NCBI GenBank assembly: GCA_963457665.1
Contig: OY735202.1
Location: forward strand, 47,120,401 to 47,184,400
Reading direction: 5' to 3'
From: Thysanoteuthis rhombus
Lineage: Eukaryota; Mollusca; Cephalopoda; Oegopsida; Thysanoteuthidae
DNA length: 64,000 nucleotides
The position numbers and the translations under genes are program-made. Within the stretch, counting starts at the first letter, position 1. Each line of letters starts with the position of its first letter. Shown here piece after piece: positions 3,722-51,054 of this stretch. The notes under the pieces are model-generated. The model did not search any database. It saw only the letters and a list, made by a program, of their open reading frames with translations, and had not been told where the DNA came from.

Positions 3722-3965
3722 AAATATGAAACTCAGAAAAGCTCATGACTAAGATGACATAACAACAGACCTTACAGAAGAAGATACAGGAGATATCTCC
3801 CCAAAAGACAGATATTTACGTAGTGCATACGAGAAAGGAAAGTGTCTTGAAACTTCTGATCTGAAATGGTGATCCTACTCCACAACAAAAAAGATAATTT
3901 CAACCTCGGCAACTACCGCCTTATTTAGTCTAGGGAAAATAACGTATGACCTCTGACAGAATTCA
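3722..3965 (+). mobile_element. Non-LTR reverse transcriptase, N-terminal palm fragment
   Basis: Frame-corrected reading gives 'KAHD-DDITTDL' (family: K-A-P-G-x-D-x-I-x-x-E-x) and about 40 codons later 'MVILLHNKKDNFNLGNYR' (family: I-L-x-H-K-K-G-D-x-x-N-x-x-N-Y-R-P-I). These are the conserved blocks just before the first catalytic aspartate of LINE reverse transcriptases. A stop falls in the first block, a frame change separates the two, and another stop follows 'NYRLI', so the fragment cannot be expressed. The catalytic motifs are not present downstream. Confidence 0.75.
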
Positions 3966-4249
3966 TCTTTGCTGTTTTATGTTTATATTGATATCTTAAA
4001 CACTGCAGTAAAAATCTAGAAAAATCTCATTTGGTGGAGATATGTTAAAATGTATTTTAATCTGAAATGGCCGCTATTATTCAAAGTTTGCCTATATCTG
4101 GACTTCAAATAGAATTGCAAGTTCTAAAGTCAGTTTCAACTTTGGAAAAAAGTACGAAACTTAAGACTATTGTCTTGTCTGTTGCTGAAACATCCTCATA
4201 AGACACCCTATTCCATTTACATGAGCATCTTTCATTAAAAAGTCACCTT

Positions 4250-7200
4250 CTTCCAAGGAACTTCCGATGTCAGGCTTAGTGGTATTTACACAACTTACTT
4301 TCCTAGACTCCACACAGGCCAGGGAACACCGAAGTCAACGATCTTATACAGCTTGTTCTGTTACAATCTGTTCTGCAGTTACAGCTGATTACTTTCTGGA
4401 TAGTTGGTGATGCTGCTGAAGGAAGGTCCATTTCTATTATGATGAGTTTTCCGTCAAACAATTGCCAATCTCAATTGGTTGGACTCAGGCCTACCCGACT
4501 GTACTTGCAAGTACGCTCTGGAACTTTGACATTTTGTGGCAGAGGCTGTAGGGGAAATCACTTTGGGATGCACAAAGACTGAACTCGTTGCGGCCTTTTT
4601 ACAAAATCGTTCATGACGTCTTTTCTACTATTGTAGATTGATAAATTGGCAGCTTTGCCAGCTTCTTCAATGTCCTTTTTTGTTTAATTTTCATTGCAAA
4701 AAAACTTCTGCATGTTTCTCAAAGTCTGGATCTGGTCTGATCAACTTCAAAGCCGCACCCTTACCAACCCCGAAATACTTGATGTGTTATCACAACACAA
4801 TATAGCGCGCCCAGACTGGATAGAATTGCAGGCTTTCCCATCGAGGTCGTTTTTCAGGTTGTGAATATTTCACACTTTTTTTTTCTGCTGTCTGTCTTTG
4901 TTCTGGTCTGAAGAAGATGTTATGGCTCTCTCTATTCGCATGGTGGCGCAACAGAACCAGCAGGCCTGTATCTTTCACCAACAGCAACTGCTGTCTCCAC
5001 TATCAACTGGTCAGAATTTTCATTAATATGAACAACTCTGAAGCTTCGCCCCAACCTTCATCCCCAGGAGGCCAATCATTATGGTTTTATTTGACAAGAG
5101 ATAACCCTTCTATGATTTACAGACCATCTCTTCATCCCTTATGTCGTCAAACGATACGGGAGGTTGTATGCACAATTGATACTTGAAAATTCCATCTCGA
5201 TTCTCTAGCGGTGTAGCGCTAGAAAAAAAAAGCTTAGGGCCGATTTGCACAATCTCCCTATCAGCTTTGAATCCATGCTGGGTTGCCAGGGTAACTGCCT
5301 GGTCGTTCTCCAGTGAGTGTACTGTGCAGCATTTTCCCCTTCCATTTTGTGCAGAATATTACAACCTACATCTCTAGCAAAGTCAATATTAACAGAAGTA
5401 TCAGCTGTCACCCTACTAGCAATATTGCGTAGAGAGGTTTCTAATGTGGAAGGTTCCCGCTTTCGTAGATAATTTTCAAGCCCCCTAGTGTCTTTTCAAT
5501 CCCTTTCAATTCTTGCGTGTGTTCTCTCCTTATGTTGTTCACTTGTAGCAAATGCTGTACCTGTGACATCTTGTACATCATAACAAATACAAGCATTGGC
5601 TGCAACCAGGTTATACACTGTAACTCTGTCATACCCAATCCCTGGTCAGACCACTGTTTGTCTTCATATTTTTCATGAGAACCTGCCCAATCACTTAATC
5701 TCCGGAGTGGGCCAGCTCAAAAGCAGTCACTTCTTCTGAGGACATGGAGATCATTCTCAAAGTATTTTAATGTAGCAGGTTGCTCATGTTTAAGTTTTCA
5801 CATCCTTTGTAGGTACAAGTGGACTGACTTTGGATATGGATTGTATCCAGGTGCAGCTGGGTATAGTCGCATCCCAGAAAGAGTCTTCAGCCATTTTTCT
5901 CAATCGCTCTACCAAAATAAAACACTGCAGCATCCCGGTCATGTTCTTATACCGAAGCCATAGTGTATCAATGCGTGAGTTCTTCGTTTTGTCTTTTACT
6001 TGATAAGTATCTTCATCCACTCTTTTTAATATTAATGAATCCTTTATTTCTGTAATCGCAATTTCACTTTTTCATTTTTCTTTCTAGCAATTCAGTGACC
6101 CAATGCAGATCATTATTTCCCTACAGGATATTCTTTTGCTCTTTCTAATAACTGTTTCAGATCTTCATTTGGTTCTTTTGGATTCTTTTCTGCTTGTGAT
6201 TTATTCTGCTCCATATATACTGCATCATGTACACTTAGGACTTCTGATGAGATTTCAGAATCGCAACACGTTTCAACAGCACTTGCATGATGTTGGTTGG
6301 CTTATGAGAAAGGACAATTGTATTCCTCTGACAATATCATTATATTCAAGACTAAGACATGCCCCATATGAGTACGAAGCTGTTGCCTTTTCAGGCAGCA
6401 TATTTACAACAGCATATCTATTGCATATATAGTCTTTCGGAGCTCGTCTAGTCCGGATGCTGACATGATGTAGTACATGTATCCTAAGAAACCTATTTCT
6501 GTATGGAAACCACCAAGTCGGAGAACCATCGAGCGGAGATCACTGTTTTGTAGTTCACTCTCAATGATGGTTCAATTTCATCTTGCATCAGCTTACAGGG
6601 GTTGGGGTTCTTATAACAGTCGAAAAAAGCTTTTCATTTTTCATCTCACATTGTTAAAGAATTCATCGGTCAACCCAACTACAAGCAGTAAGGATATATC
6701 ACTAAGATGGTCGAAGATGTCCTATCTTTTACTCTGAGTCTTATGGCCAGTCTACCCCTAGCTGGAGGGGGAAGGAGGAATGTGTCTTTCCTTTCTGTCT
6801 TTTTTTTGTTTTGTTTTGTTTTCAGATCTATCTGTTTTGGGGTTTAGAGGAATATTCCAATCAAATTTTGGTGTACATTTGGAAATATTAAAGCCTTACT
6901 CTTACTTACAGTTTTGGTAGATGTTAGATGGTGTACATTTTAATGGTCAAACAACACAGCTGAATGAATGAATAATGAGAAAAATAGAAAGAAAAATCGT
7001 TGCCTTCCACCGAAGCGGCTGATTGAAGGCAATGATGGGAGTAACATTACATTTCATTGCTTAATCATAAACAAACGGGTGCAGAATACACACAAAACAT
7101 ATGCGTAGGACTCATGTCTATCATAGGCATAAAAAGAAACTATTCATGACTTTCCTCTGTGTTTTCCTTTGTGGACAAGTTCCATCATTCCTGATCACAC

Positions 7201-8600
7201 AAGCTGTTAAGACTTTGGGACCCAAGAGACTTTACAAAGAAACTGTAGGTTAGATGCAGTATCCAATCAGTAGCATTCGCAATCCTCCCCAAGGTCATAG
7301 AGGAGAGGCCAAGGGTCTCCAATTTTCAAAAGTGGATATTGATACACCCTACAGCAGCTGTGTAATCTGATGTCACAGCTATGACTGTTCCTCTAGAAAG
7401 AGCCACACTTGACTCATACTTTTTCACTTGCTTATATAAAGAATAGAATTCAATCTCACTAAAAAAAAAAAAAAGATTTGTATGCCAAGTCCCATTTATA
7501 ATGGAGGGATGAGAATCGTTGGCCTTGTTACCTACATCTTGGTACGTCCCACTTGTAGTTCTCAAGAGTAAAGGTTCTTTGAGGAAAAGATGAAGGGTTC
7601 TTGGTGGAATTACATTTTTCATTAGAAGATGAAATACCGTCAAATGAGGGATATGTATCTCTGAATCTTGACATGTTTTATATCAGTCTTCACCAGCCTG
7701 GTACCAATTTTCACAAAACGGACCATTTTTGCATCAATATCACTATTTCCCTTTCTAGGTTCGGGCATAAATGCACTCAAAATATTTAAGGCTTTTGACT
7801 TGAATGCAACCACTATCAGTCTGCCATTGTTTTCTGTAATGATTGTTTGATCACCAATTCTTTCAAGCAGCTTCATCTTCGTGTGCTTCATTATTTATTA
7901 CTCACAACTGTCATCACAACAGTCATTTTTCTCTTTGAGGTATTGTTTCATCTTAACAAGTAAGCCACCAAGTGTAATATAGTCATTATCATTCTATTCT
8001 AAATACCTGGCTACCTTCAAGAATGCATTTGATCCGGCTTCATCATGAGGTTTGCCCCTTTTCTTTGGACAACTATGTACTTCATAAGTCTAAGGTATTT
8101 GTTGTTGTTTTTTTGGTACGGAAGTTCACACCGCATTGTTGATGATAGATGGCATCTGCAGCATGAAAATCCAGGGTAAATTCCAGTCTTGCAAGAACTT
8201 TTAGTGCTCAGCTATCATAGCACTTCTGGCATACTTCTGAATTCTGAAATTCTTTGGACCCAACAGGAAACATCTCATACCCTCTCCTCTTCTCATCAGA
8301 TGATTTTCCAAACAGGAGACATTTTTTCCTGAAATGAGAACTTGAGATTACTTTTTATGCAACTCAATTTTGTTTGGGTTGCAGTAGACTCTTCTGTATT
8401 CTTGATCTACTCTCGGTCCGCAACGAACATACACTCACTTTTTCGCACATCAAAAAATCTCATGTGGAGCAAGTTTCTTAGTCGCACATATCCTGAAAAC
8501 TTGGCCTTTTTGTGTTGTTTTCGCATCTTTTCTGGTTTTATTGACGGTTATCTTATTCATTTCTCAATGACCACTTTAGAATCTGGAAGGAAGTGAACAA
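4250..8600 (-). pseudogene. Decayed multi-copy invertebrate ORF with CXC-like C-terminus
   Basis: The minus strand preserves, in collinear order from 8.6 to 4.25 kb, fragments of a large protein family I know as multi-copy hypothetical proteins in octopus, cnidarians and arthropods, some annotated with a Tesmin/TSO1-like CXC domain. Visible blocks: 'CLLFGKS' (8303-8335); 'DFHAADAIYHQQCGVNFR' (8118-8175); 'MKLLERIGDQTIITE' (about 7830-7890); 'TRPTILIPPL' then 'MGLGIQI' (about 7480-7540); 'YKQVKKYESSVALSRGT' (about 7380-7440); 'DTLWLRYKNMTGMLQCF' (about 5920-5970); 'GMTELQCITWLQPM' (about 5590-5640); 'KYQLCIQPP' (about 5150-5180); 'DWQLFDGKL' (about 4460); and 'ISCNCRTDCN' (about 4375-4400), which starts the cysteine-rich end. 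Stops and frameshifts occur throughout. The function of the family is not known to me; its copy number suggests a mobile or viral-type origin, which is inference. Confidence 0.75.
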
Positions 8601-8754
8601 TAATATCATACAACTGTCTGGTGCTTAGTTTTATCTCACACCTGCACACACACATACGCTCACACATGTTTACAATATTGGTTTGTACTCACTGACACTG
8701 ATTGGCCCGTTGAGAGTCAAATTACAATGTTACCAAGATATTATCTAGGCCATC

Positions 8755-8838
8755 AACATGTAGCTAAGCTACTTAGAATATCCACATGTAGCTAAGCTAA
8801 CTAGCATATTCACATGTAGCTAAATAATTTAGTGCATT
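8755..8838. repeat. Three-unit tandem repeat, 28-bp period
   Basis: The phrase 'acatgtagctaa' starts at 8756, 8784 and 8812, with related intervening bases ('gctacttagaatatcc' and 'gctaactagcatattc'). The spacing is 28 bp both times. It lies just beyond the 5' end of the 4.25-8.6 kb pseudogene and may belong to it, but I cannot show this. Confidence 0.8.
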
Positions 8839-9160
8839 TCGATTGGTAACAGACAGCGACTCGTAACGAAGAATATGCTGAAGACGAATGATGAAGGAAA
8901 TCTGGTTATGAAACCGTTAGCATTGTTAAATGATAACAAATGAGAGGCACTTGTTATATAGCTCACATGTTTAATTTAAACAGTAGATTTATATAAATAA
9001 GTATGTATTTCAGTTTTTAGCTTATTTATAATACAGGAAACATCTGATAAGTATGATTTGGAGTTCAGATCTATTTGCCATATGCATGCTTAATTTTTTT
9101 TTAGAACAAATGATACATGTTTGTGTTGTCACTAAAATATACAGTTTTCCATTCTTTGAC

Positions 9161-9382
9161 CTATCCATAGATTGTGTTAATTTTGACAAGGTTCCCCCAC
9201 TTTGATTTTTCTAGACATGTTAGATTGGAAGGTTTAATGAGCTGAATGCAACAGAAATCCTTTCTGTTGCGATCAATCCAAGGTTGGATGAAGTTTTCTC
9301 CCAGTTTCCCTAGATTGATTACAGAATTACCAAAGATACATAATCTATTCTCAAACATACTTGCAAACATACTAACAACCAT
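9161..9382 (-). other. Unassigned 73-codon open frame
   Basis: A minus-strand open frame with mixed, non-repetitive composition. It contains 'GENFIQPWIDRNRKDF' and 'IQLIKPSNLTCLEKS', which read like real protein rather than microsatellite translation. I do not recognise a family. It has no clear start context or splice signals that I can defend. It lies between the 4.25-8.6 kb pseudogene and a LINE, so it could be another transposon remnant or chance. Confidence 0.2.
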
Positions 9383-9479: not shown

Positions 9480-10460
9480 TTAAAATACAAACCACTTTGA
9501 TTGGCCTTTGTAGTTTATGAGAAAGCATTTGACTCAACGTGAGATCAAGGTGTTAACGAGAATTGATTACAGGTCATTCAGAACATCGAATATGGCACTA
9601 CAAAAATCAGACTGCAAAAACGTACAAACCAGATAAAGATAGAAGAAGGGGTAAAGCAAGGGGATGCAATATCACCTGAACTATTCAAAGTGAGACTTGA
9701 ACGCATATTTCGGAAAAAGTGACAAGGAGGGAATGGAGATAAGCTAGTCGTAAAATATTTAAACCGCTTGAGATGACGTTTCAGTTATGAGGGATTGCAA
9801 AACATGTTGACTGATCTATAGTGGGAAATTTGAAAAGTAGGCTCAAAGATGAACAGAAGAATTACAAAAGTAATGTTCGATGATCAATTCTCCCTAAAGA
9901 CTATAAGAATAGAGGGCGAGGCTTTAAAAGAAGTTAACGAATACGTTTACCAAGGACAAGTGATAAAGTTAGAGGAAGACAATGGAAGCGAAATAAATCG
10001 ACGCATAACGATTGGCTAGAAATATTTTGGTATGAATAGAGACATATTTAAGAGCATCTTGCCAATTTTCTTAAGATCTAAAGACTACAATAAATACATA
10101 ATGCCAGCTGTGACTTATGGATGTGACACATGGAAATTTTCAAAAAGATTGAACTCTATGAGATGCAGACAGATCAACATGGGTCAGAGGGATGACTAGA
10201 GTGGAGGATATGATATAAATATGGTGATGGGCTAGACACTTGGCCCGAAGAGATTACAACAAATAGAACAAAAGGCTCTCCGATTGGTGCCCATGAAACA
10301 GTAAACGCTGTACGAAAAGACCAGCCACAAAATGGAGGGATGAGATAGGAAGGTTTGCTGGTAAGGCATGGCAGAGGTCAGCGCAATTGTGGTCATCATG
10401 GAGGGAAATTGGAAAAGGCTTTGTTCAGCATTGGACTTATCATGACTGATGATGATAGCA
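9480..10460 (+). mobile_element. LINE reverse transcriptase, motif A to 3' end
   Basis: This is the longest LINE remnant here. Frame-shifted reading gives 'VVYEKAFDST' (9510-9540), the motif carrying the first catalytic aspartate; 'GVKQGDAISPELFK' (about 9648-9690); 'VMFDDQFSLKTIRIEGEA' (about 9872-9930); 'VNEYVYQGQVI' (about 9933-9965); 'INRRITIG' (about 9992-10015); and 'MPAVTYGCDTW' (about 10101-10133). A degraded C-terminal region and a short GAT tail at 10446-10458 follow. The F-A-D-D block expected near 9745-9770 is frameshifted and unreadable. At least four stops or frameshifts are visible. It matches the endonuclease-reverse transcriptase type of RTE-like LINEs; the endonuclease half is missing. 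Confidence 0.85.
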
Positions 10461-20085: not shown

Positions 20086-20284
20086 ATTTAATAATCAACT
20101 TTTCAATCATTATAATTGTATTTAAAGAAACTTGCAGTAACCGAACACGGTTTTTTTTTTTCAAAAAGATTCCGTGGTAACTGAATAATTATACGCGTAA
20201 AACGGAAAATAGTGTCAGTTTTCCAAATCGAAGTAACTGGATTTCATTCTGAATTATATAGCGTATAGCAGAACGCGCGTGAAA

Positions 20285-20765
20285 TATCATCATTATCATC
20301 AGCAGCCATTATAAGTATACTGCTAGACACAGGCATCTCCAATCTCGATCCATAACGAATGTGATTGTGCTAATCTCTGCTATGTCTTAACAGCAAATAT
20401 TTCTATCTTGTCCCTCGATCTTGTATATGGTCTTTTTCAAATGCGTTTCCTCTTTCACGGGCATCAATCGGTTAGTCTTTTATTTCATTCATTGTCCTTT
20501 CTTCTCGCTATGTGCCTTGTCCATCTCTATTCTTGGTGCTTCATTACTTGAGCAATATTATTCATTGTGACCCTTCTCGGATCCGTGTTCATCTTTTTAT
20601 ATTTCCTATCGCTAAGAGTTATTCTTAATATTGCTTTCACAGCCTTCTCTGCTGCTGAGATGGTTTTGTAAGTTTCCAGGTTTTGCACCTGTACATCATA
20701 GTTGATATTATGCATTAATCGTATACTGTACGTTTTAAACATATTGGATATTTGCTTTTCAGTAA
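20285..20765 (-). mobile_element. LINE reverse transcriptase C-terminus, GAT-type tail
   Basis: On the minus strand an open stretch contains 'ISAAEKAVKAILRITLSDR' (family: M-x-R-x-M-L-x-I-T-L-R-D-R). After a stop come 'RWTRHIARRKDNE' (family: R-W-A-G-H-I-A-R-R-x-D) and 'KTWQRLAQSHSLWIEIGDA' (family: W-x-R-x-A-Q-D-R-x-x-W-x-x-x-G-E-A), then GAT/AAT triplets at 20287-20302. Order and spacing are those of the RTE-like endonuclease-RT tail. Stops in 'R-P' and the tail show it is dead. Confidence 0.8.

Positions 20766-22908: not shown

Positions 22909-22982
<74 letters not shown>
22896..22982. repeat. (CA)n(TA)n microsatellite
   Basis: A CA run passes into about 30 TA dinucleotides and directly abuts the left end of the family B core at 22983. 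The Tyr-Ile and Thr-His open frames here are translations of this repeat. Confidence 0.95.
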
Positions 22983-22985
<3 letters not shown>

Positions 22986-23204
22986 GTCATCCACAGACAG
23001 CTGTTTCGATGTATTCCATCTCTTCAGTGTGGCTATAGACTTTCCATTATCCCATCCAGTACCGCAAGGAAGAATTGAAACCTTCACTTCAGACCTGGAG
23101 GCCGATATCCTACGTCTGGACAGTCAGTAAGGCTGAATTTAAGCGATATATCTATTTACACAGAAATCCCTCATCCACCAGAGTGTTTTATTCCTATGGA
23201 AACG

Positions 23205-23205
<1 letters not shown>
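22983..23205 (+). repeat. Family B dispersed repeat core, copy 1
   Basis: This block of about 220 bp runs from 'gtgtcatccacagacagctg' to 'ttcctatgg'. It recurs in reverse complement at 30447-30684 with high similarity throughout, including 'gcgatatatctatttacaca' against 'tgtgtaaatagatatattgc'. In both places the core lies between dinucleotide arrays, so the arrays probably belong to the repeat unit. It has no ORF and no terminal inverted repeat. Confidence 0.8.

Positions 23206-23281
<76 letters not shown>
23206..23281. repeat. (CA)n(TA)n microsatellite
   Basis: This array bounds the right side of the family B core. The minus-orientation copy at 30.4 kb has a matching (TA)n at the equivalent end. 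Confidence 0.95.
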
Positions 23282-28744: not shown

Positions 28745-28747
<3 letters not shown>

Positions 28748-29430
28748 ACCATGATAATAGATGGTGAAGCCTCAAAAGAAGTTAGGGAATACAATTACCA
28801 AAGTCAAGTGATAATATATCAAGATCATGGAAATGAAATGAGATGGCCCATAACGATGGACTGGAAAGCATTTGGTATGAATAAAGACTTACTAAAAAGC
28901 AAATTGCATGTAGGTTTAAAACGTAAAGTATACAATTATAATAAAAGCTATGAGGTATCGATGTGAAGCTTGGAAACACTCAGAATAGCTCAATAGAGGG
29001 CAATGGAAAGAGCATTGTCAGGAATGGCCCTTAATGATAGGAACAGGACAACATGAACATAGAAAAGGAACAGGCTGAAGGATATCACATAAGTAATCAA
29101 GCATCAAAAATAGATAAGGGCAGGGAACATAGCGGGAAGAATGGAAAAAAAGAACGGCGCAAAAAATAAAACTTCATTTGTGACTCAGATTATCGAAGGA
29201 GAGAAATGGCAGAAGAGAGCATTGGTCGAAGAGAGACAGTTGATATATAACGACTTGTGCCTGTGGGACAGTAAACGCTGTAGGAAAATGCCAGACAAAA
29301 TGAAGAGACAAGATAGACCTATTTGCAGTATTAGACATGGCAGATATTAGCGCGATCACGCTCGTCTTGGGGGTGGATAGAAAGGGCCTGTGTCCAGCAG
29401 TGGACATAACGACGACGATGATGATGATCA
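28745..29430 (+). mobile_element. LINE reverse transcriptase C-terminus with GAT tail
   Basis: Reading begins 'TMIIDGEASKEVREY' (homologous to 'TIRIEGEALKEVNEY' at 9.9 kb), then 'AFGMNKDLLKSKL' and 'GLKRKVYN', then 'AMERALSGMALNDRNR' (family: M-E-R-A-M-L-G-I-T-L-x-D-R). A decayed tail with 'LWDSKRCRKMP' follows, ending in GAT triplets at 29410-29428. The YADD core and everything upstream are missing, replaced by (TA)n. Stops break it in at least three places. The 120-codon frame from 28604 is a chance fusion of the (TA)n translation with this fragment. Confidence 0.85.

Positions 29431-30384: not shown

Positions 30385-30446
<62 letters not shown>
30385..30446. repeat. (TA)n microsatellite
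   Basis: This array bounds family B copy 2 on its low-coordinate side. Confidence 0.95.
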
Positions 30447-30448
<2 letters not shown>

Positions 30449-30684
30449 TCCATAGGAATTGAGCACACTGGTGGATGAGGAATTTCTGTGTAAATAGATA
30501 TATTGCTTAAATTCAGCCTTACTGACTGTCCAGTTCCGTAGTCCTGAGGCAGGATATCGGCCTCCAGGTCTGATGTGAAGGTTTCAATTCTTCCTCACGG
30601 TACTGGATGGGATAATGGAAAGTCTATAGCCACATTGAAGAGATGTAATATATCGAAACAGCTATCTGTGAATGACAAAATAAC
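30447..30684 (-). repeat. Family B dispersed repeat core, copy 2
   Basis: Reverse complement of the core at 22983-23205, aligned end to end: 'gcctccaggtctgatgtgaa' against 'ttcacttcagacctggaggc', and 'atgggataatggaaagtcta' against 'tagactttccattatcccat'. It again sits between dinucleotide arrays. Confidence 0.8.

Positions 30685-30799
<115 letters not shown>

Positions 30800-50529: not shown

Positions 50530-51054
<525 letters not shown>

Follow-up and report, generated by a model that had tools for sequence, protein, structure and literature searches.

A decayed CXC-type reading frame in Thysanoteuthis rhombus as a probable remnant of an old TIR DNA transposon

Proteins of the CXC type are abundant in invertebrate gene lists, where they are entered as hypothetical proteins or as host genes, and no account that names this CXC ORF a transposon was recognised in the literature searched. 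A long, decayed frame of this type lies in a 64,000-nucleotide stretch of the genome of the cephalopod Thysanoteuthis rhombus (contig OY735202.1, positions 47,120,401 to 47,184,400; hereafter, the window), and raises the question of whether it is what remains of a host gene or of a mobile element. An ORF that lies within a repeated element with defined boundaries and inverted terminal sequences provides a direct reason to treat such proteins as mobile DNA. The analysis described below indicates that the locus, which spans about 5.4 kb, is quite probably a dead member of an old class II family of DNA transposons of the TIR type.

A broken reading frame on the minus strand

Three-frame translation of the minus strand yields 25 peptide pieces of one broken protein, chosen by eye, that follow each other in the N-to-C order from position 8327 to position 4348, with frame changes and stop codons intervening between the pieces. 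The original prediction of ten or more collinear minus-strand family blocks is thus borne out, and the order of the pieces is matched in genomic copies. In the region 4250-8600, the minus strand contains 7 stop-free runs of at least 80 amino acids against a shuffle mean of 1.18, a number reached in none of 300 shuffles, and 28 and 10 runs of at least 40 and 60 amino acids against shuffle means of 18.5 and 4.6, neither of which was equalled in 300 shuffles. The plus strand of the same region is raised less, with 6 runs of at least 80 amino acids against a shuffle mean of 3.63 (equalled or exceeded in 41 of 300 shuffles). Elsewhere in the window, tiles contain as many as 14 runs of at least 60 amino acids on the minus strand, compared to the 10 at the locus, so the run statistic cannot by itself single out the locus, which is counted as real because other genomic copies carry the corresponding blocks in matching order. 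The window has no matches in Rfam or tRNA scans.

Genomic copies and the ends of the element

The host genome searched comprises 2.73 Gb in 514 contigs. A 1-kb query matched at least five other places with 67-76% identity (the place at 20.97 Mb of contig C4 in two pieces), and a second query added at least two further places, one of them a match of only about 115 bp. Taken together, the two queries place related DNA, 67-77% identical, at a minimum of seven other genomic positions, a lower bound at which the family can be called multi-copy, as had been proposed. When the 10-kb stretches around each of the seven places were compared and translated, blocks of the protein of the window were found in the translations. 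No second copy was found at the DNA level inside the window, and neither pattern scans of viral contigs and genome contigs nor a tblastn search of phages detected family members outside the host genome, the translated pattern matches having been judged unlike by eye.

The homology with the window extends past the ORF on both sides. Seven long copies were compared for their ends (that of the window, L025-L029 and L036). The 5' limit of homology falls at window position 9313 in L025 and 9312 in L029, so that this end is common to three of the seven copies including that of the window, and the 3' limit, at 3922 in L025 and at 3926 in L026 and L027, is common to four. The remaining copies, which may be truncated or too decayed, stop short of these points: L026 reaches 9192, L027 about 9098-9131 and L036 9194 on the 5' side, and L028 and L029 do not attain the 3' end. 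Between L025 and L027, and between L026 and L027, similarity continues for 13-22 bp beyond the 3' end given here. Over the 60 bp on the inner side of the ends, identity is 0.61-0.80, and over the 60 bp on the outer side it is 0.41-0.49 (these outer stretches starting 8 bp beyond the end on the 3' side), compared to 0.40-0.52 farther out and a mean of 0.45 for random window pairs. The copies therefore appear to lie in unrelated surroundings, an argument against segmental duplication. The resulting boundaries and the associated repeats are as follows:

3930..9313, minus strand: whole element (about 5,384 bp, give or take some bases at the ends), from copy-to-copy homology bounds and the inverted repeat
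9305..9314, minus strand: 5' arm of the terminal inverted repeat, reading TCTAGGGAAA along the element strand (pair I9)
3929..3938, plus strand: 3' arm of the terminal inverted repeat, reading TCTAGGGAAA along the plus strand (pair I9)
8752..8823, no strand assigned: tandem repeat with a 28-bp unit, within the non-coding 5' part, several units of which are also present in L025

The inverted repeat of the window copy is exact over 10 bp and matches at 14 of 17 positions over a longer pair. It is one of 21 pairs returned by an unguided search for inverted repeats that had been made before the copies were compared. When 25-base stretches were paired at random 20,000 times, 30 of the pairs scored as well as the terminal repeat, although the test was placed on the repeat itself, which favours it somewhat. 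In L025 and L029, the inverted repeat is less clear on the 5' side. Past the 3' arm, four copies share the sequence ACTA(T)A, which has no clear 5' counterpart, so the exact termini are uncertain by some bases. No clear target-site duplication can be read in the window copy or in L025, the two copies that have both ends; the copies are too old. Another inverted repeat, 3416-3433/8623-8640, was considered as a pair of termini and rejected, given its score of 26 against a mean best score of 26.5 for shuffled flanks, the absence of an adjoining duplication and the other ends shown by the copies. Since its 28-bp unit recurs several times in L025, the tandem repeat belongs to the element, and it might be a subterminal binding array.

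The region of 4250-8600 originally assigned to the family does contain its blocks, but the element is longer and spans approximately 3930-9313. The suggestion that the family moves agrees with the presence of copies at unrelated sites, with their common boundaries outside the ORF and with the inverted repeat at these boundaries. Had the copies lacked common boundaries and shared only a syntenic host-gene context, the suggestion would have failed; the alignment of copies with their flanks, which had been proposed as the check, showed otherwise. A TIR DNA transposon is expected to have common ends outside the ORF at unrelated sites, which are observed here, and terminal inverted repeats, which are observed in the window copy.

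Two other interpretations bear on the same evidence. A multi-copy family of immobile host genes with decayed duplicates could account for the small number of copies, with seven other places as a lower bound from two queries, and for the failure to read a target-site duplication, but is very unlikely given that the flanks of the copies are unrelated, that homology stops at common points outside the ORF and that an inverted repeat is found at the ends. A fossil of a LINE or another retroelement, suggested by apparently LINE-like fragments nearby (for example, 9834-10019 on the plus strand), is even harder to credit and can be regarded as extremely improbable: no reverse-transcriptase family occurs among the matches of the pieces scanned, which cover part of the frames of the element, and the ends are inverted rather than direct repeats, the best direct flank-to-flank match being a gapped one of 46 columns with a raw score of 29 that has no shuffle baseline.

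The decay of the copies was followed by codon position. Summed over five comparisons that all have the window in common, the mismatches between the window and the copies are 493/2244, 525/2241 and 558/2243 at the first, second and third positions (22.0, 23.4 and 24.9%, respectively), and the non-coding ends, with 22.9% mismatches, are on par with the codon positions. Half of the Jukes-Cantor distance amounts to approximately 13-14% per copy. Such near-even mismatches are the pattern of dead insertions derived from a common master, and the decay is almost neutral, although the small excess at the third position speaks against strict neutrality.

Protein modules along the element

Within these boundaries, the following parts of the protein can be followed in the window, in the N-to-C order:

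8109..8327, minus strand: N-terminal zinc-finger-like block (damaged CxxC ... YHQQC), from translation; CLFCGQ is kept in L025
7670..8038, minus strand: conserved block, from translation; copies show up to 77% DNA identity
7386..7430, minus strand: block just ahead of the lost NVDHN, the putative first acidic motif (NVDHY in L025, also present in L026), from the copies
7001..7042, minus strand: TPIIAFNQPLRWKA, with the putative second catalytic acidic residue, N in the window and D in L025, L026 and L029
6354..6526, minus strand: GGFH block and the helical block after it, from translation
5638..5694, minus strand: VIGQVLMKNMKTNSGLTRD, with the putative third catalytic acidic residue, G in the window and E in L025
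5143..5435, minus strand: conserved block that separates the putative transposase core from the nuclease-like part, from translation; counterpart in L020 and L026
4700..5015, minus strand: putative remains of an XPG/FEN-like nuclease (SDQLIVETAV, KDTGLLVLL, CCDNTSS, FGVGKGAALK)
4348..4392, minus strand: C-terminal remnant of a CXC (Tesmin/TSO1-like) domain, CNCRTDCNRTSC, from translation; longer counterpart in L022 and L028

The N-terminal motif C-x-F-x-G-K of the original prediction is present, but corresponds to a damaged CxxC finger (CLLFGKS in the window, CLFCGQS in L025). Likewise, the description of the copy as near full-length holds for its overall outline but not for two parts that are lost relative to the copies: the first acidic motif, removed by a deletion of approximately 135 bp (L025 3673-3844 versus window 7344-7380), and a stretch of roughly 280 bp from the nuclease-like C-terminal part.

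The copies carry blocks of the protein with recognisable motifs, namely NVDHN in L026, NVDHY in L025, TFDQP in L029, TFDHP in L025, GGFH together with VIEQ in L025, and GCDSTS together with the CXC end in L028. We take NVDHN, FDQP and IEQ to be a candidate DDE triad, although the E of the third motif is intact in one copy only, L025, and the D of the first motif is missing in L029. The earlier statement that the ORF has no transposase signature is therefore probably wrong, with NVDHN (L026), TFDQP (L029) and VIEQ (L025) as the members of that putative triad. The part of the window at 5015-4700, counterparts of which are present in L026, L027 and L028, presumably resembles an XPG/FEN-type nuclease, with a DTDLLVLL-like strand and with GCDTTS..GVGKG as a helix-hairpin-helix. 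A Pfam scan of the pieces gave no support for a transposase or a nuclease, and PDB searches returned three weak matches for the nuclease-like piece of the window, none to a FEN-type chain, and no FEN-type chain for a six-row nuclease-like profile with approximate rows. The C-terminal cysteine pattern is like that of the Tesmin/TSO1-like CXC domain. The CXC end of L022 matches the Pfam TCR family (PF03638) with an E-value of 0.008 and 16.9 bits, short of the curated cut-off of 23.5 at which the domain would be called, and the CXC piece of the window itself has no match. Other Pfam matches (PetN, MUS81-like winged helix, DUF5522, DUF7671, TPPII_C, Retro_M and others, E-values of 0.0008-0.47) are below the curated cut-offs and were dismissed as chance; the TCR match, likewise below the cut-off, was retained as a weak pointer.

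If these assignments are correct, one long protein would recognise the ends of the element via the N-terminal finger and/or the C-terminal CXC domain, both of which may bind DNA; a DDE-type catalytic core, with NVDHN, FDQP and IEQ as its putative triad, would cut the element out and paste it elsewhere; and a C-terminal module similar to XPG/FEN nucleases might trim or resolve DNA flaps. A different possibility is that the CXC ORF is a passenger of another mobile element rather than its transposase. The catalytic motifs are putative, and the terminal inverted repeats could serve the enzyme of another element, but about 4 of the 5.4 kb that separate the two ends are taken up by remains of the ORF, and the scanned pieces yielded no recognisable coding sequence of any other kind, which makes a passenger unlikely.

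Classification and neighbouring repeats

The nuclease of the AcademX elements is of the XPG type. With its terminal inverted repeats and its putative DDE-like and XPG/FEN-like motifs, the element is provisionally filed as an Academ-like TIR DNA transposon, to which AcademX appears to be the best fit. The most likely class is the AcademX lineage of Academ, a tentative assignment based on these putative motifs.

This account of Academ is drawn from four papers (PMC10045372, PMC10294476, PMC10799480, PMC9587614). Repbase counts Academ among its 20 DDD/E superfamilies (PMC9587614), and AcademX is described as a DDD/E lineage with a nuclease and 3-4 bp target-site duplications (PMC10045372), to which the element is likened by this description. 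AcademH, also likened by description, shares the DDD/E transposase of the superfamily but is characterised by a helicase and 9-10 bp duplications (PMC10045372), whereas no helicase family was matched by the pieces of the element that were scanned. According to PMC9587614, lineages of Kolobok (KolobokE, KolobokD and KolobokP) also combine a DDD/E transposase with accessory nucleases; they are set apart, again by description, by nucleases of other types.

The occurrence of accessory nucleases in Kolobok, together with a likeness to Academ that is drawn from descriptions, leaves room for a TIR transposon outside Academ, of another or unnamed superfamily, with its own transposase joined to nuclease-like and CXC domains. 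We consider this possible but doubtful: the combination of a transposase and a nuclease on a TIR element is precisely that of AcademX as described in PMC10045372. If the element does belong to Academ, its presence in a cephalopod would be a trace of the superfamily outside bivalves. Among the molluscs covered by PMC10294476, bivalves appeared to be the only ones with Academ ORFs; that work includes a curated bivalve library with 100 Academ elements.

Whatever its class, the family is, or was, mobile, and is probably of a known kind hidden under the label of hypothetical proteins. The end sequences reported here offer a handle for finding young copies, reading target-site duplications and settling the superfamily. 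A less likely reading, in which we place little confidence, is that the widespread CXC-type invertebrate proteins are transposases of a separate, undescribed TIR superfamily. A single chain would then unite a DDE core with a FEN-like flap nuclease and a DNA-binding CXC domain, and one protein would recognise the ends, cut the DNA and trim it.

The window also contains other repeats. Dispersed related fragments, 67-71% identical, are located at 9834-10456, 28745-29425 and 20280-20765, and their frames presumably represent pieces of a LINE reverse-transcriptase ORF, which they resemble. Another repeat family, represented at 1559-1763 and 2489-2826, is also found in L025, L026, L027 and L037; it sits inside the transposon copy of L026 and was therefore inserted there later. 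An AT-repeat-bearing pair in inverted orientation, 86% identical, occupies 22929-23280 and 30386-30736, and a long (TA)n array, some 520 bp in length, extends over 50531-51054.
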